In this document: in pieces, positions 2 through 12,811 of the stretch
Position numbering within the stretch: position 1 is the stretch's first letter
Layout of the letters: the number at the start of each line of letters is the position of its first letter
NCBI RefSeq assembly: GCF_018622995.1
Contig: NZ_CP076022.1
Location: 1,302,001 to 1,366,000, forward strand
Origin: Arthrobacter jiangjiafuii
GTDB taxonomy: Bacteria; Actinomycetota; Actinomycetes; Actinomycetales; Micrococcaceae
DNA length: 64,000 nucleotides
Direction: 5' to 3'
Made by a program: the position numbers and the translations under genes
Notes under the pieces: generated by a model
What the model saw: only the letters and a program-made list of their open reading frames with translations
The model's database searches: none
Told to the model about the DNA's origin: nothing

Positions 2-85
2 GTGGCGATGACCCGGCCCACACAGCGGCTGCGTCTTATTGCTGCACGCCCGGTTCCCGCTGGCATTGTCGAAGAAGAAGACTGA
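2..85 (+). CDS. possible C-terminal end of an upstream gene (partial)
   Basis: One forward frame is open from the window edge to a TGA at 83-85 and ends in an acidic tail (V-E-E-E-D). It would stop 13 bases before the tyrS start, which is a plausible spacing. Only about 27 codons are visible and I do not recognise the family, so this may be a chance open frame. Confidence 0.22.
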   Translation: MAMTRPTQRLRLIAARPVPAGIVEEED

Positions 86-98
86 TATTTTGGAAACC

Positions 99-1418
99 GT
101 GACTACCGAAACCCCAGCGGGCCTGAGCGCCCAGAAGAATGATCCGACTTTCGAGAACGTTTGGCAGGAACTGAAGTGGCGTGGCCTGGTCCACGTGTCC
201 ACTGACGAGGCCGAACTGGAGAAAATGCTCGCCGGGGATTCGATCACCTACTATTGCGGTTTTGATCCCACGGCTCCGAGCCTGCACCTGGGCAACCTGG
301 TGCAGCTGCTGACCATGCGCCGGCTGCAGCTGGCGGGCCACCGTCCGCTGGCCCTGGTGGGTGGCTCCACCGGACTGGTCGGAGATCCGCGCCCCACGGC
401 CGAGCGCACCATGAACACCAAGGAAACCGTCTCGGAATGGGTCGGTTACCTGCAGGGCCAGGTGCAGCGCTTCCTCAGCTTCGAGGGAGACAACGCGGCG
501 CAGATGGTCAACAACCTTGACTGGACGGCGCCGATGAGTGCCATCGACTTCCTCCGGGACATCGGCAAGCACTTCCGGGTCGGGACCATGATCAAGAAGG
601 AGATCGTTTCCTCGCGCCTGAATTCCGACGAGGGCATTTCCTACGCCGAGTTCAGCTACCAGGTGCTGCAGGGAATGGACTACCTCCAGCTCTTCCGCGA
701 CTACAACTGCGTGCTGGAAACCGGCGGTTCGGACCAGTGGGGCAACCTCACGGCCGGCACCGAACTGGTACGCAAGGTCGAGGGCAAGAGCGTCCATGCC
801 CTGGGCACCCCGTTGATCACCAACTCCGACGGCACCAAGTTCGGCAAGAGCGAGGGCAATGCCATCTGGCTGGACGGCACCATGACCAGCCCGTACGCGA
901 TGTACCAGTTCTGGCTGAACACCCCCGATGCCGACGTCGTGGACCGGCTCAAGGTCTTCACCTTCCTTTCGAAGGCGGAAATCGAAGAGCTGGCACACGC
1001 CGTGGCCGAAGAGCCGCACAAGCGCGCCGCTCAGCGCCGGCTCGCCTACGACGTCACGTCCCTGATCCACGGAACCGAAGCAACGGACAAGGTGATTGCG
1101 GCTTCCGCAGCATTGTTCGGCCAGGGCGAGATCTCCGAGCTGGATGAGGCGACGTTGACCGCTGCCACTGCCGAGCTTCCGCGCGTGGTTGTCGAGGCTG
1201 ACGGTTTGGGCATTATTGACCTGCTCGTGGCGTCCGGACTTTCCGCCAGCAACTCGGCTGCCCGGCGGACGGTGGCCGAGGGTGGCGCGTACGTGAACAA
1301 CCGCAAGGTCACGGACGCCGATACGGTAGTTGCCGGCAGCGAGTTGCTGCACGGTAAATACCTGCTGCTGCGCCGCGGAAAGCGGACGCTTGCAACGGTG
1401 GAAGTGGCAGCCGTATAG
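99..1418 (+). CDS. tyrS: tyrosine--tRNA ligase
   Basis: Cytoplasmic class I aminoacyl-tRNA synthetase that charges tRNA-Tyr with tyrosine. The class I signature appears as HLGN (about residues 63-66) after GFDPTAPS, and the KMSKS loop as KFGKS (near residue 247). A C-terminal S4 RNA-binding domain occupies about the last 65 residues, as in bacterial TyrRS. The length of 439 aa is slightly above the usual 420. The GTG at 99 is preferred because conserved sequence begins soon after it (QKNDPTFENVW); in-frame TTG at 90 and ATG at 39 are alternatives, and the ribosome binding site is weak (GGAA). The rRNA operon follows 650 bases downstream. The family assignment is very secure; only the start is uncertain. 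Confidence 0.96.
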   Translation: MTTETPAGLSAQKNDPTFENVWQELKWRGLVHVSTDEAELEKMLAGDSITYYCGFDPTAPSLHLGNLVQLLTMRRLQLAGHRPLALVGGSTGLVGDPRPTAERTMNTKETVSEWVGYLQGQVQRFLSFEGDNAAQMVNNLDWTAPMSAIDFLRDIGKHFRVGTMIKKEIVSSRLNSDEGISYAEFSYQVLQGMDYLQLFRDYNCVLETGGSDQWGNLTAGTELVRKVEGKSVHALGTPLITNSDGTKFGKSEGNAIWLDGTMTSPYAMYQFWLNTPDADVVDRLKVFTFLSKAEIEELAHAVAEEPHKRAAQRRLAYDVTSLIHGTEATDKVIAASAALFGQGEISELDEATLTAATAELPRVVVEADGLGIIDLLVASGLSASNSAARRTVAEGGAYVNNRKVTDADTVVAGSELLHGKYLLLRRGKRTLATVEVAAV

Positions 1419-2072: not shown

Positions 2073-7257
<5,185 letters not shown>

Positions 7258-7531
7258 ACCACAACCTCACCTGGACGGACACGACTTCAAACGGTCCGTC
7301 AAAGTATAAAGGGTGTTGTTAGATCATGTGCTGCTTGCGTCCACTATGTGGTTCCCGGATAACAAACCCGTGTGGTTTGTCACCCGTGGAACCGGTATCA
7401 ACCGTCTCTTAACCGGGACGTGCGTGCCGTATAATTACAGTTATATATTGCATCGAAACACTACGCGTGTTTTTGTTGTGACCATTGATTTCCCCTCACC
7501 CAGGTTTGTTATGGGTGGTGTGGGTGGAAGG
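7258..7531 (+). other. 23S-5S spacer with pre-23S processing arm
   Basis: This spacer is transcribed and non-coding. The stretch 7333-7354 (GCTTGCGTCCACTATGTGG...) is complementary to 3979-4000 upstream of 23S and closes the RNase III stem. The rest has no gene or tRNA that I can see. Confidence 0.75.
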
Positions 7532-7650
7532 GTTACGGCGGTCATAGCGTGGGGGAAACGCCCGGTCCCATTCCGAACCCGGAAGCTAAGACCCACAGCG
7601 CCGATGGTACTGCATCCGGGAGGATGTGGGAGAGTAGGTCACCGCCGGAC
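7532..7650 (+). rRNA. rrf: 5S ribosomal RNA
   Basis: About 119 nt from GTTACGGCGGTCATAGCG to GTCACCGCCGGAC. The terminal strands (ACGGCGGTC / ACCGCCG) pair as helix I, and the conserved CCCATTCCGAACCCGGAAG loop is intact. Confidence 0.95.
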
Positions 7651-7665
7651 AATCTTTACGGTTGA

Positions 7666-7758
7666 AATACACCGGTTGTTCAGAGGCTGAGGTCCGTACC
7701 AGTGATGGTACGGACCTCAGCTGTTTAACCGGTGGTAATACACTGGTTGTTCAGAGGC
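7666..7758 (+). repeat. 22-bp direct repeat framing a duplicated terminator unit
   Basis: AATACAC(C/T)GGTTGTTCAGAGGC occurs at 7666-7687 and 7737-7758, identical in 21 of 22 positions with a 71-bp period. Each copy is followed at once by a perfect hairpin of different sequence and then by a TGTTTAACC-like tail. The terminator region thus looks like a tandem duplication in which the stems later diverged or were replaced. Confidence 0.85.
7687..7720 (+). terminator. rRNA operon terminator T1
   Basis: A perfect 14-bp stem (CTGAGGTCCGTACC / GGTACGGACCTCAG) with a 6-nt loop AGTGAT lies 36 bases after 5S. The following sequence is CTGTTTAACC, so the T tract is short, as is common in actinobacteria. 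Confidence 0.85.
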
Positions 7759-7788
7759 GTGGGGCCCCGCATTCGTGCGGGGCCCCAC
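7759..7788 (+). terminator. rRNA operon terminator T2
   Basis: A perfect 12-bp stem (GTGGGGCCCCGC / GCGGGGCCCCAC) with a 6-nt loop ATTCGT, then ATGTTTAACC. It lies 38 bases after T1 and is preceded by the second copy of the 22-bp direct repeat. Confidence 0.85.
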
Positions 7789-7834: not shown

Positions 7835-8152
7835 ATGCGTGCATACGAGACCGATCATGCTGAGCCCCGGGAGTCGATGGATTCGCCCAACTACCGGGTT
7901 AATTTCTGGGTTAAACCACGTCCCGGATATGGATGGAACCTGGATGCCTACGTGCTCACTGAATCCGGGGATATTACCGAGGTACTGCGGTGGGTGGAGG
8001 AGCACGCGGACGGACGGCGTTTCGAAGTCTTCGCTGAAACCGATGAGGAGCCGGTCCTGCCGCTCGGAACCCCTCGGACCAGCGGACTGGTTCGCCTGCT
8101 GGGAAGCAACCCAAATACTGGTATCTCCGGAGAGATATCTCTCAAAGAGTGA
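7835..8152 (+). CDS. small conserved-looking hypothetical protein
   Basis: A predicted soluble, acidic protein of 105 aa. The middle reads like a small alpha/beta domain (RVNFWVKPRPGYGWNLDAYVL, then ITEVLRWVEEHADGRRFEVFAE). I do not recognise the family. The start at ATG 7835 lacks a Shine-Dalgarno site and may be leaderless. The ATG at 7877 (MDSPNYRV, 91 aa) has GGGAG just upstream but too close. It stands alone between the rRNA terminators and the repeat protein. Confidence 0.6.
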   Translation: MRAYETDHAEPRESMDSPNYRVNFWVKPRPGYGWNLDAYVLTESGDITEVLRWVEEHADGRRFEVFAETDEEPVLPLGTPRTSGLVRLLGSNPNTGISGEISLKE

Positions 8153-8421
8153 CTACGCGCCACCTTGTTCCGGCTCCGGTGCTGGAAACGATGCCGGCAC
8201 CCACTCTGCCTGCTTCGTCTGAGCGGTAATCCGATAGGTGGGGAGTCTCACCTAATCCGGACAGTCCCTTCGGCACGTGGCGACGCTACCCGGACCAGGC
8301 TGGACTAGAATTGCCTTGTGCCCGTTTTGGGCCCCACGACTTTAGAACTTTATATATCCATAGTGACGAGCGACTGCAGTAAATTCCGTTGGTCGGCTCA
8401 CGACGAGAGGAACTCACCAGC
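8153..8421 (+). other. gene-free interval upstream of the repeat protein gene
   Basis: Contains an inverted repeat TAGGTG-N8-CACCTA (8235-8254) flanked on both sides by TAATCCG. An AT-rich patch at 8341-8365 precedes the Shine-Dalgarno GAGAGGAA of the next gene. No clear terminator and no further gene seen. Confidence 0.4.
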
Positions 8422-10629
8422 ATGTCAGAGCAAAATAACAGGGATCAGCGCGGCAGCGAAGGAAACAGCGCCGCCCGCAGCAGCAGCTCGTCCGACCGAC
8501 GCGACGACCGGGGCCGCCCGGCCACGAACGACCGCAACGCACCCAAGCGCTTCGAAGACCGTAAGCCCTCCTTTGGAGGCCGGCCGGCACGCGACGGCGA
8601 GCGTAAGTCTTTCGGTGAGCGAGGCGCTTCGTCGGAGCGCAAGCCGTATTCCAAGGACCGTAAGCCGTCTTTCGGTGGCGATGACCGTCGTCCCCCGCGT
8701 GATGGTGACCGTAAGCCCTCCTTCGGAGATCGTCCGGCACGTGATGGTGACCGTAAGCCCTCCTTCGGAGATCGTCCTCCCCGTGATGGTGAGCGCAAGC
8801 CTTTCGGTGACCGCGGAGATCGTAAGCCTTCGTTCGGCGGCGGGGATGACCGCCGGCCGGCACGAGACAACGATCGTAAGCCGTCCTTTGGCGACCGCTC
8901 CGAGCGCAATGACCGCGCCAGCCGTGGCAGTGATGATCGTCGTCCTCCCCGTGATGGTGAGCGTAAGTCGTTCGGCGACCGTGGGGATCGTAAGCCGTCC
9001 TTTGGGGATCGTAAGCCTTCGTTCGGTGGCGATGATCGTCGTCCTCCCCGTGATGGTGAGCGTAAGTCCTTCGGTGATCGTGGCGATCGTAAGCCGTCCT
9101 TCGGTGACCGGCCTGCCCGCGGTGGCGATGATCGTCGTCCTCCCCGTGATGGTGAGCGTAAGTCGTTCGGCGACCGTGGGGATCGTAAGCCGTCCTTCGG
9201 GGATCGTAAGCCTTCGTTCGGTGGGGACGATCGTCGTCCTCCCCGTGATGGTGAGCGTAAGTCGTTCGGTGATCGTGGGGATCGTAAGCCGTCGTTCGGG
9301 GATCGTAAGCCTTCGTTCGGTGGGGACGATCGTCGTCCTCCCCGTGATGGTGAGCGTAAGTCGTTCGGTGATCGTGGGGATCGTAAGCCGTCGTTCGGCG
9401 ATCGTAAGCCTTCGTTCGGTGGGGACGATCGTCGTCCTCCCCGTGATGGTGAGCGTAAGTCCTTCGGTGATCGTGGCGATCGTAAGCCGTCCTTCGGTGA
9501 CCGGCCTGCCCGCGGTGGCGATGACCGTCGTCCGGCACGCGACTCCGCACCCCGTTCCTTCTCCAACGACCGTCCGGCCCGCGGCGAGGATGCACCCGTC
9601 GTCGAGCGCAAGCACAACGCCCGCGACCTGCGCAGCGCCAACCGCCCCGACCGCGAGCGTTCGCCGGAAATCGACGACGACGTCACAGGCCAGGAGCTGG
9701 ACAAGGTTACCCGTGCCCAGTTGCGCATCCTGGAGGAAGTCAGCGGTGAGTGGGTCTCCAAGCACCTGGTCATGGCAGGCCGCCTGATCGACATCGATCC
9801 CGAGCTGGCTTTCCAGCACGCCCTGGCAGCAAGCCGCCGCGGCGGACGTATGGCAGCAGTGCGTGAAGCAGTTGCCCTCACCGCCTACGCCTCAGAGAAC
9901 TTCGCCGAGGCCCTGCGTGAATTCCGCACCTACCGCCGGATCAGCGGCTCCAACGACTACCTGGCCATGATGGCCGACTGCGAACGCGGCCTGGGTCGCC
10001 CGGACCGCGCCCTGGACATCTCCCGTTCGGACGAAGCCAAGTCACTGGATACCGCAGGCCAGGTGGACATGGCGATCGTGACCTCCGGTGCCCGCATGGA
10101 CATGGAGCAGTTCGACGCCGCAGTGACCGCATTGGAAATCCCGCAGCTGGATAAGAACCGTGCGTTCTCCTTCAGCCCGCGGCTCTTCCGCGCGTACGCC
10201 GATGCCCTCGAAGCTGCCGGCCGCATGGAAGAATCCGCACAGTGGAACGACCGCGCGCTGCTGGCCGAAAAGGCCCTGGGCGTCGGAGAATTCGCTGAGC
10301 CGGACATCTTCGACCTGGGCGAAGACGACGAGAACGAGAAGCCGGAGCGTCCGCGCCGCGGACGTGAAGACCGCGACGACCGCCCGGTCGCCGAACGCTC
10401 CGACACGCCGTTCGCTGCTCCGGTCGAGACCGCAGTTGCCGATGACGAGCTGGAACTGTCCGACGACATCGAGTCGCTGCCCTCGGACGAGGAAGAAGGC
10501 GTGATCGGCGTCCTCGAAGCAGAGGAAGAGGACGACGACAACACCGTTGAGATCCACGACGACGGCAACGACAACGACGAGTTCTCCGCTGACGCACCCG
10601 TTGGTGACGCCGACCAGGACCGCGCGTAA
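8422..10629 (+). CDS. TPR-like protein with R/FG-rich tandem-repeat N-terminus and acidic tail
   Basis: Three parts are visible in 735 aa. Residues 1 to about 415 are disordered and rich in R, D, K, P, G, S, F. They include six tandem 32/33-residue units (residues 171-366) built from DDRRPPRDGERKSFGD, RGDRKPSFGD and RKPSFGG blocks. Residues about 418-640 form a helical TPR-like domain (VTRAQLRILEEVSGEWVSKH; AFQHALAASRRGGR; FAEALREFRTYRRI). The last 95 residues are very acidic. Only the TPR part looks conserved: in M. tuberculosis a short TPR protein sits in the same tyrS-HAD-tlyA neighbourhood (recalled). ATG 8422 follows GAGAGGAA. A scaffold or RNA/protein-binding role is inference only. Confidence 0.85.
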   Translation: MSEQNNRDQRGSEGNSAARSSSSSDRRDDRGRPATNDRNAPKRFEDRKPSFGGRPARDGERKSFGERGASSERKPYSKDRKPSFGGDDRRPPRDGDRKPSFGDRPARDGDRKPSFGDRPPRDGERKPFGDRGDRKPSFGGGDDRRPARDNDRKPSFGDRSERNDRASRGSDDRRPPRDGERKSFGDRGDRKPSFGDRKPSFGGDDRRPPRDGERKSFGDRGDRKPSFGDRPARGGDDRRPPRDGERKSFGDRGDRKPSFGDRKPSFGGDDRRPPRDGERKSFGDRGDRKPSFGDRKPSFGGDDRRPPRDGERKSFGDRGDRKPSFGDRKPSFGGDDRRPPRDGERKSFGDRGDRKPSFGDRPARGGDDRRPARDSAPRSFSNDRPARGEDAPVVERKHNARDLRSANRPDRERSPEIDDDVTGQELDKVTRAQLRILEEVSGEWVSKHLVMAGRLIDIDPELAFQHALAASRRGGRMAAVREAVALTAYASENFAEALREFRTYRRISGSNDYLAMMADCERGLGRPDRALDISRSDEAKSLDTAGQVDMAIVTSGARMDMEQFDAAVTALEIPQLDKNRAFSFSPRLFRAYADALEAAGRMEESAQWNDRALLAEKALGVGEFAEPDIFDLGEDDENEKPERPRRGREDRDDRPVAERSDTPFAAPVETAVADDELELSDDIESLPSDEEEGVIGVLEAEEEDDDNTVEIHDDGNDNDEFSADAPVGDADQDRA
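8932..9519 (+). repeat. six in-frame tandem repeats of 99/96 bp
   Basis: Units begin at 8932, 9031, 9127, 9226, 9325 and 9424, with lengths 99, 96, 99, 99, 99 and 96 bp. The two 96-bp units carry the alternative ending FGDRPARGG in place of FGDRKPSFGG. Units are nearly identical in DNA, including synonymous sites, which points to recent expansion or homogenisation. All lengths are multiples of three, so copy-number change would keep the frame. Confidence 0.95.
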
Positions 10630-10633
10630 CCCC

Positions 10634-11632
10634 ATGCCGGGCACCCCGCTGATAGCCGGATACGATGCCGTCCTGTCCGATTTGGACGGCGTCGTCTATG
10701 CGGGTCCGCATGCCATACCCGGAGCCGTCGAGGCGTTGCAGCGCCTCGACGGCGCCGGTGTGCAGCTGGCCTACGTCACCAACAACGCCTCGCGTTCCTC
10801 GGAAGCGGTGGCGGCGCACCTGCGCGAGTTGGGGGCGCCGGCTACGGCGGAAACCGTGTTCGGCTCGGCGCAGGCCGGCGCCGAACTGCTGGCCGGACAG
10901 GTGCCGGCCGGTGCCACTGTCCTCGTCACGGGAAGTGCCTGGCTCCTGGAGCAGGTCCGTGAACAGGGCCTGGTTCCTGTTGCGTCGGCTGATGAGGCGC
11001 CCGACGCCGTCATCCAGGGTTTTGACCCCGGACTCGGCTGGAAGGACCTCGCCGAGGCGGCGTTCGCCGTCGGCCGCGGTGCAGTGTGGGTCGCCACCAA
11101 TACCGATATGTCCATCCCCCAGGCACGGGGGATTGCTCCCGGAAACGGAACGCTGGTGGCCGCCGTTGCGGCAGCCACCGGCAGGACTCCGCTGGTGGCC
11201 GGCAAGCCAGAGGCCCCGCTTTTCCTGACGGCAGCACGCCACTTGGGTGCGCAGGCACCCCTGGTGGTGGGCGACCGCCTGGATACCGACATCCTCGGCG
11301 GCAACAACGCCGGATACGCCACTGCGATGGTGCTCACCGGTGTCGATACCCCGCAGACCGCATTGGCCGCGCGCACGCAGGAGCGGCCTGCCTTCCTGCT
11401 GAAGGACCTCGACTCCCTGTATCACCCGTATCCGGAAACCGTCTTCGAGGACGGCATGTACCGCTGCGGCAGTGCTACGGCGCGGGTGCTTGGTGACACG
11501 GTGGAGATCTCCGGAGACAGTGCCGATCTCAACAGCTGGCGGGCCGCGTGTGCGGCCTGGTGGGAGGCCCGTCCGCAGGAGGACAGCGCCACCGCGCCGG
11601 TGCTCAGCTGGACTGTCACCGCCGGCGGATAA
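10634..11632 (+). CDS. HAD superfamily class IIA (NagD-like) phosphatase
   Basis: Predicted cytosolic Mg2+-dependent phosphohydrolase of 332 aa. HAD motif I is DLDGVVY (about residue 16), motif II VTNNASRSSE, the motif III lysine lies in GKPEAPLF, and motif IV is VGDRLDTDILGGNNAG. This is the NagD/PNPase-like arrangement with a C2 cap. ATG 10634 is four bases past the previous stop, so the two genes are co-transcribed. The same HAD gene precedes tlyA in other actinobacteria (from memory). The substrate cannot be told from sequence. Confidence 0.88.
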   Translation: MPGTPLIAGYDAVLSDLDGVVYAGPHAIPGAVEALQRLDGAGVQLAYVTNNASRSSEAVAAHLRELGAPATAETVFGSAQAGAELLAGQVPAGATVLVTGSAWLLEQVREQGLVPVASADEAPDAVIQGFDPGLGWKDLAEAAFAVGRGAVWVATNTDMSIPQARGIAPGNGTLVAAVAAATGRTPLVAGKPEAPLFLTAARHLGAQAPLVVGDRLDTDILGGNNAGYATAMVLTGVDTPQTALAARTQERPAFLLKDLDSLYHPYPETVFEDGMYRCGSATARVLGDTVEISGDSADLNSWRAACAAWWEARPQEDSATAPVLSWTVTAGG

Positions 11633-11929: not shown

Positions 11930-12811
11930 GTGGCAAGACTGGACCAGGAACTGGTGGCCAGGGGACTGGCCCGCTCCCGGACGCATGCGGCCAAGCTCAT
12001 CAGCGCCGGCCGTATTTCCCGTGCGGGCACGGTTCTGGGCAAGGCTTCGGCGGCCGTCGCCGCGGATGATCCGCTGACGGTGCTCGACGACGGCGTCCCC
12101 GACTACGTGAGCCGGGCCGGCCATAAGCTGGCCGGAGCCCTCGACGCCTTCCCACAGGTGAAGCCTGAGGGGCTGCGCTGCCTCGACGCCGGAGCCTCCA
12201 CCGGAGGCTTTACCGACGTCCTGCTGCGCCGGGGCGCCGACCGCGTGGTGGCCGTCGACGTCGGACACGACCAGTTGGTGGACGTGCTGCGCCAGGACCC
12301 ACGCGTCGACGTCCACGAGGGGATGAACGTCCGGTATCTGGAACCCGAGGCCATCGGCGGCCCGGCAGACCTGACCGTTGCCGACCTCTCCTTTATTTCC
12401 CTGACCCTGGTCATCGGCCCGCTGGCAGCAGCCACCCGCCCGGGCGGCAGCCTGCTGCTTATGGTCAAGCCGCAGTTTGAAGTCGGCCGTGAGAAGCTGG
12501 AGAAGGCCGGCGTCGTCCTTGATCCGCTAAAGCACCGGATGGCGGTGGCACGCGTGGTTGCCGCGGCGATGTCCGAAAACCTCCGGGTCGCAGGGCTGGC
12601 CCGCAGCCCGCTGCCGGGACAGAACGGCAACGTGGAGTTCTTCCTCTGGCTGCAGGTACCGCAGGCGCAGGATCCGGCGGAAGAACGCTTCGAAGATCCA
12701 CAGAGTGCCGCACGCAGTTTGGTGGATGCGGCCTTTGACGGGTTTGATGGACCCGGACCTGAGCCGGTAACGGATCGGTTTGCGCAGGCGGCACGCTCCA
12801 CAGGAGACTGA
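11930..12811 (+). CDS. tlyA: TlyA family rRNA (cytidine-2'-O)-methyltransferase
   Basis: Known members 2'-O-methylate cytidines in 16S and 23S rRNA and make ribosomes sensitive to capreomycin/viomycin; the family is often annotated as hemolysin. An N-terminal S4 domain (about residues 2-60: LDQELVARGLARSRTHAAKLI) precedes an FtsJ-type SAM fold with CLDAGASTGGFTDVLL, VAVDVGHDQL and VADLSFISL, then KPQFEVGREK. 293 aa, slightly longer than usual. GTG start after GAGGAG. Adjacent to nadK and recN, the usual actinobacterial order. Confidence 0.93.
   Translation: MARLDQELVARGLARSRTHAAKLISAGRISRAGTVLGKASAAVAADDPLTVLDDGVPDYVSRAGHKLAGALDAFPQVKPEGLRCLDAGASTGGFTDVLLRRGADRVVAVDVGHDQLVDVLRQDPRVDVHEGMNVRYLEPEAIGGPADLTVADLSFISLTLVIGPLAAATRPGGSLLLMVKPQFEVGREKLEKAGVVLDPLKHRMAVARVVAAAMSENLRVAGLARSPLPGQNGNVEFFLWLQVPQAQDPAEERFEDPQSAARSLVDAAFDGFDGPGPEPVTDRFAQAARSTGD

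Follow-up and report, generated by a model that had tools for sequence, protein, structure and literature searches.

A TPR protein with a long arginine-rich arm encoded behind an rRNA operon of Arthrobacter jiangjiafuii, and its possible link to ribosome biogenesis

The window analysed here is a stretch of 64,000 nucleotides from Arthrobacter jiangjiafuii, an actinobacterium of the Micrococcaceae (positions 1,302,001 to 1,366,000 of contig NZ_CP076022.1, assembly GCF_018622995.1), whose genome is assembled as a single contig of 3,593,579 bases. Its first genes, all on the forward strand, are tyrS (39..1418; Pfam tRNA-synt_1b, E=9.5e-80), which is the upstream neighbour of an rRNA operon, the 16S (2073..3600), 23S (4096..7262) and 5S (7534..7650) rRNA genes located with Rfam, the last of these closing the operon, a gene for a protein with a disordered arm and a TPR domain (hereafter the arm-TPR gene), a HAD-IIA phosphatase gene (10634..11632, its ATG lying within a longer ORF, 10547-11632) and tlyA (11930..12811; NCBIfam TIGR00478, above cut-off), the gene for an rRNA 2'-O-methyltransferase. 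The arm-TPR ORF is unbroken from an ATG at 8422 to the stop at 10629 and encodes 735 amino acids. The protein begins with an R/D/G-rich arm (aa 1-409; 8422..9648), within which lie six tandem units of 32/33 residues (8932..9519), and continues into a TPR domain with helices from about aa 428 to 619 (9703..10278) and an acidic tail (aa 640-735; 10339..10626). On a charge-hydropathy plot the arm and the tail fall on the disordered side and the TPR middle on the folded side. Searches of the protein gave no match in NCBIfam or PHROGs and none to nuclease or helicase families, and query A1 matched nothing among PDB sequences.

Between the 5S gene and the start codon, folding predicts a strong hairpin with a 17 bp stem (7685..7722, forward strand), which is probably the terminator of the rRNA operon, and a second one with a 13 bp stem (7759..7788, forward strand); both are absent from a simple terminator scan, and a simple promoter and terminator scan of this gap found neither kind of signal. 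Alignment with relatives points to TAGAAT (8306..8311, forward strand) as a candidate -10 element, since 21 of 26 selected Micrococcaceae loci, the window's included, have TAGAAT or TAGACT at a distance of 110-132 nt upstream of the start. The ribosome-binding site GAGAGGA (8405..8411, forward strand), recognised from the sequence and the alignment, stands 10 nt from the ATG, and both site and start are common to the window gene and its relatives. A 91-aa ORF without a Pfam match lies between the rRNA hairpins and the arm-TPR gene (7877-8152), and weak similarity to it (40% over 45 aa) was seen in two relatives' loci. A hairpin after the 5S gene is usual among the loci, and in 13 of them it lies 26-42 nt from the start, leaving little room for a promoter (the 0 nt of L114 comes from a doubtful start call). 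In 11 genomes with several rRNA copies, the hairpin before the arm-TPR gene looks as stable as the others, in a comparison of 60-nt folds that cut part of the window's own hairpin, leave U-tracts unscored and take 5/6 copies for G162 and G405. As these hairpins are as stable as those at other copies, designed read-through from the rRNA operon is not claimed, and read-through from rRNA promoters is a possibility without support.

The repeat block of the arm is described by Tandem Repeats Finder with a period of 99 (6.1 copies, 8935-9533) and also with a period of 195. The units start at aa 171, 204, 236, 269, 302 and 335, have lengths of 33, 32, 33, 33, 33 and 32 aa, and are identical as protein over their first 25 residues. 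An earlier sequence-only reading of this DNA had described six near-identical units carrying SFG and DR/RG blocks, and the intact frame and the identity of the units bear this out; the whole protein contains 23 SFG, 24 FG, 48 DR and 17 RG motifs. The same reading saw in the arm a strongly positive disordered segment of about 400 residues. The 409 residues, the net charge of +35 and the disordered side of the plot agree with it, but the 118 K/R residues are accompanied by 83 D/E, so that the arm is a polyampholyte with a positive excess and not purely positive. It contains 90 Arg, 67 Asp, 59 Gly and 26 Phe.

At the DNA level, the 75 bases common to the units vary at eight sites, all eight of them third-position and synonymous, whereas only 24% of the possible single changes would be synonymous. 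Such synonymous-only variation shows that the repeats are under selection as protein sequence. Some pairs of units are nearly identical (one difference in 96 bases between those at 9031 and 9424 and one in 99 between those at 9226 and 9325), which fits recent duplication or homogenisation. Between species, arm dN/dS was below 1 in all 204 usable pairs, with a median of 0.26 and a maximum of 0.63, against a TPR median of 0.04; the 217 pairs compared, 13 of which were saturated, share at least 88% identical TPR residues and derive from 68 distinct arms of loci L007-L103. These cross-species values are biased downward because the amino-acid alignment picks the matching, a bias from which the in-register comparison of units is free. 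The repeat block (8932-9519) also has a codon usage of its own, CGT accounting for 40 of 44 Arg codons (9 of 31 in TPR plus tail) and GAT for 29 of 36 Asp codons (5 of 43 in TPR plus tail). ORFs of 393-478 aa on the minus strand (8414-9881) overlap the arm and are taken as by-products of the repeat codons. A search of the genome for further arm copies at E<=1 gave nothing beyond the known arm and two antisense frames that cover it, with composition filters that may hide others.

The domain that follows the arm is only faintly visible to profile searches of the whole window protein, whose sole TPR match was TPR_16 at E=0.05, below its cut-off; among members of the family, TPR_2 was matched at E<=0.01 by 34 of 60. 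The AlphaFold2 model of the domain (pLDDT 91.2, pTM 0.84) is a solenoid of stacked helix-turn-helix elements, as in the TPR superfamily, and matches solved TPR structures in VIA-align, in accordance with the TPR-like domain first proposed. MamA, TTC0263, Rap and LGN are matched as a general fold at 8-16% identity, and no functional inference is drawn from them. The acidic tail of about 95 residues proposed from sequence likewise holds, the 96 residues of aa 640-735 containing 36 D/E and 9 K/R. The tail carries a net negative charge in 119 of 121 proteins when a fixed domain length is used and in 151 of 156 when the alignment ends are used, and arm and tail charge are inversely correlated across the means of 24 families (rho -0.61, p 0.0017, with kinship ignored).

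The TPR part is a near-constant feature of the class Actinomycetes. Searches detected it in 147 of 149 Micrococcaceae genomes, in 99 of 100 genomes of the order, in 280 of 295 genomes of the class (15 were without a match) and in 61 of 149 genomes of the phylum, 13 of these belonging to the class. Positive genomes have one match each in the family and order searches, and five genomes have two in the class search. In the 28 relatives and the 12 class members inspected, arms are present that consist of quite different repeats or, in several cases, show no clear repeats. Among 14 loci inspected with uncalled start codons, most of those outside the class have short basic N-termini. So do the loci of group g47, which are taken for mycobacteria; there the N-terminus spans roughly 55 aa, and a long acidic tail is missing in the four inspected. 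Locus L099 (WNZI01000078.1), labelled Vibrio cholerae 35D, holds an Arthrobacter-like copy of the locus that is probably assembly contamination and whose arm-TPR frame appears to shift in its second half. The 11411-aa frame that seemed open in L331 (G603:C2:3114000-3123000) runs into a stretch of N and is therefore not a giant gene.

Arm statistics were taken from 164 loci (L007-L170), L001-L006 being excluded as overlapping loci of the window's own gene. Of these loci, 137 were retained, with 121 distinct arms; 18 were dropped for want of a called start, 8 for N in the frame (these two groups partly overlap) and 3 for arms shorter than 60 aa. The start codons of relatives were called by a simple score and some are doubtful. 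All 121 distinct arms are Arg-rich (Arg fraction 0.16-0.36), over lengths of 66-681 aa with a median of 297. Their median Asp content is 0.112, against 0.016 and 0.003 in the shifted frames of the same DNA, and their median aliphatic content 0.081, against 0.437 and 0.227. All 121 are net positive as well, with a median of 0.082 per residue, but the +1 and +2 frames are so too (medians 0.093 and 0.197 per residue); net positivity is thus weak evidence and was dropped as a proof of selection. Neither does the lack of in-frame stops count as evidence, because open frames were chosen by construction. The informative signs of selection on the arm are its Asp content, its aliphatic depletion and the synonymous variation of the units. 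The arm persists as a composition while motif, length and aromatic content change, and the initial view that only the TPR part is conserved at this locus is wrong. The FG spacing stressed there is local to this lineage, as the aromatic fraction of the arms ranges from 0.000 to 0.090 and FG is not kept; that emphasis is best given up.

The position of the gene behind an rRNA operon, which the sequence-only reading did not mention and the present analysis adds, was followed in 40 class loci picked for a spread of families and taken with as much as 6.5 kb of upstream DNA. An rRNA gene on the same strand lies upstream in 34 of them; in the other six (L147, L156, L161, L162, L164, L168) the contig breaks off within the frame or no further than 320 nt upstream of the called start. 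Among the 33 class loci with both a 5S gene and a called start, the gap between them is 73-400 nt in 31 and is long in two, 3893 nt (L140) and 4937 nt (L148). Over 171 distinct loci of all kinds, upstream rRNA was present in 104, and many of the other 67 are short of flanking DNA. Exceptions do exist, since eight named Micrococcaceae loci with more than 2.7 kb before the called start have no upstream rRNA, one of them (L065) having N in its frame. Outside the class, with flanks of at most 1.5 kb, a 5S gene was found upstream in 8 of 17 loci and a 16S gene alone in one more. As a control, the first sizeable co-directional genes behind two of this genome's five other rRNA operons were searched in 40 class genomes each and the best 30 loci of each were examined: rRNA lay within 1.5 kb in 0 of 29 and 0 of 29 relatives (0/58), the own genome's loci alone being positive, whereas class TPR loci with flanks equal to or shorter than those of the control had rRNA in 19 of 27 (L104-L130). 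In class genomes G352 and G158 the sole 23S match is the one preceding the arm-TPR gene. On these comparisons, the rRNA linkage can firmly be regarded as widely conserved with exceptions. Moreover, tlyA is often near: at 20 of the 40 class loci a match to it lies in the fetched DNA. Locus L330 (G606:C1:64000-71500) comes from a 0.8 Mb genome; there the TPR gene, which has a basic arm, ends about 15 nt or less from a tlyA match, and the 7.5 kb fetched contained no HAD-IIA match and no rRNA match. Gene order can persist without shared function. A location after the rRNA genes hints at a role in making or organising ribosomes.

Rv1692 of mycobacteria is presumably a HAD phosphatase, and on that assumption the order known for the Rv1691/MSMEG_3754 family, a TPR gene upstream of HAD-IIA and tlyA, is also found in the window; in loci L143, L144 and L164 of family f10, HAD and tlyA matches likewise lie downstream. 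The arm-TPR protein therefore apparently belongs to this family, the link being gene order and the TPR label and not direct alignment. The resemblance has a limit in the g47 loci, mycobacterial by inference, with their short N-terminus and missing long tail. The mycobacterial cluster consists of lprJ, Rv1691, Rv1692, Rv1693, tlyA, ppnK and recN (PMC3072309), the rrnB operon of mycobacteria follows tyrS (PMC10218544), and Rv1691 is also named in PMC11754781. According to PMC7092591, MSMEG_3754, the orthologue of Rv1691, was picked in M. smegmatis from the high-confidence list of a crosslinked pulldown made with the RNA polymerase beta subunit, which comprised 275 proteins, 214 of them of high confidence, and had 'ribosome' as its top enriched cellular-component term. 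With FLAG-MSMEG_3754 no visible DNA was recovered, for which its authors suggest too little DNA or an association with RNA (PMC7092591). A place on a list of 275 proteins is weak evidence. In the open-access PMC literature no description was found of the arm or of the linkage downstream of rRNA, and such a description may exist elsewhere.

The arm-TPR protein may best be seen as the variant with a long arm, found in Micrococcaceae, of a core protein of actinobacteria that would serve in the cytosol as a scaffold for pre-rRNA or for ribosomes being made, a tentative reading whose chances are put somewhat below even. The reading as a factor of rRNA or ribosome biogenesis is preferred because it joins the linkage, the tlyA neighbourhood, the chemistry of the arm and the pulldown. 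The RNA or ribosome link first suggested from charge and FG/RG spacing is in this sense plausible, although its support comes from the operon position in class-wide samples, from tlyA near in half of them and from the published pulldown of the apparent orthologue (PMC7092591), net positivity alone being weak. In such a scaffold, the Arg-rich disordered arm would bind RNA and further copies of the protein through many weak contacts, the TPR superhelix would dock a conserved protein partner, and the acidic tail would compete with RNA for the arm or link neighbouring copies. Tandem duplication would allow arm length and motif to drift, with selection holding the composition. Condensate formation would be a further, putative step beyond the role in ribosome biogenesis; by the charge-hydropathy plot only, the arm has the disordered multivalent region expected of a condensate scaffold. 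A still bolder proposal, held to be quite unlikely, is that of a 'nucleolar' organiser, a core protein encoded with the rRNA operon whose arm and tail would set up a compartment for ribosome assembly on pre-rRNA as it is made and whose TPR domain would recruit assembly factors, lineages re-inventing the arm by tandem duplication while its physical chemistry is kept.

The same pulldown could also speak for a factor on the transcription side, which would raise the local amount of RNA polymerase or of elongation factors at rRNA operons and not act on ribosome precursors. This is an unlikely explanation with an appreciable chance, since the beta subunit of RNA polymerase brought down what appears to be the mycobacterial orthologue (PMC7092591), the gene adjoins an rRNA operon, and RNA polymerase foci form at rRNA-operon clusters in E. 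coli (PMC5996182). However, the crosslinking, the prominence of the 'ribosome' term and the missing DNA in that study argue against it. Of similar, rather low probability is a general TPR adaptor, for instance of a chaperone or Clp protease, whose arm would be an entropic spacer or solubility tag and whose rRNA linkage would be a frozen accident. MSMEG_3754 does occur in the ClpC1 interactome (PMC10433963), the fold is matched by TPR proteins of many functions and some genomes are without the linkage. Yet a neutral spacer would need neither the R/D/G enrichment with aliphatic depletion that all 121 arms present nor purely synonymous variation among units, and a frozen accident sits poorly with the linkage recurring in 8 of 17 loci from outside the class.

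Composition also invites comparison with known disordered proteins. A component of mRNA-decay or RNA-chaperone bodies, akin to the disordered region that scaffolds RNase E bodies, would share with the window protein a charged, Arg-rich low-complexity region, an acidic tail and a possible RNA role; it is improbable, as no enzyme domain, nuclease or helicase family was matched in this protein, and its annotated neighbours comprise rRNA, a HAD phosphatase and tlyA, although decay genes may lie among the others at the relatives' loci. RGG/GAR proteins of the nucleolin type likewise have, on one polypeptide, a disordered arm rich in Arg and Gly and, apart from it, an acidic stretch, but the window protein has only 3 RGG in 735 aa, unclustered and one of them inside the TPR domain, its arm is an Asp-rich polyampholyte, a TPR domain takes the place of an RNA-recognition domain, and no homology is shown. 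The repeated SFG/FG of the Arthrobacter arm recalls FG nucleoporins, in which FG is set in spacers of low charge; the window arm, by contrast, is about half charged, and some relatives have arms without any aromatic residue. That the repeat arm is an artefact of assembly or frame is scarcely credible. Near-identical repeats are prone to copy-number error and long antisense ORFs cover the arm, but the genome is a single contig, the frame is open in relatives with different repeats, relatives share the ribosome-binding site and start, and variation between units is synonymous only, so that a wrong frame is already refuted.

The arm-TPR gene is thus a nearly universal, mostly single-copy gene of a bacterial class that includes antibiotic producers and major pathogens, it often stands beside the rRNA operon, and no assigned function for it was found in the literature. 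Arms of 66 to 681 residues occur naturally on one conserved domain, and this series would make it possible to test how the function of a disordered region is coded by composition and not by exact sequence. If the preferred reading of a scaffold for rRNA maturation is true, ribosome biogenesis in the phylum would gain a factor of its own.
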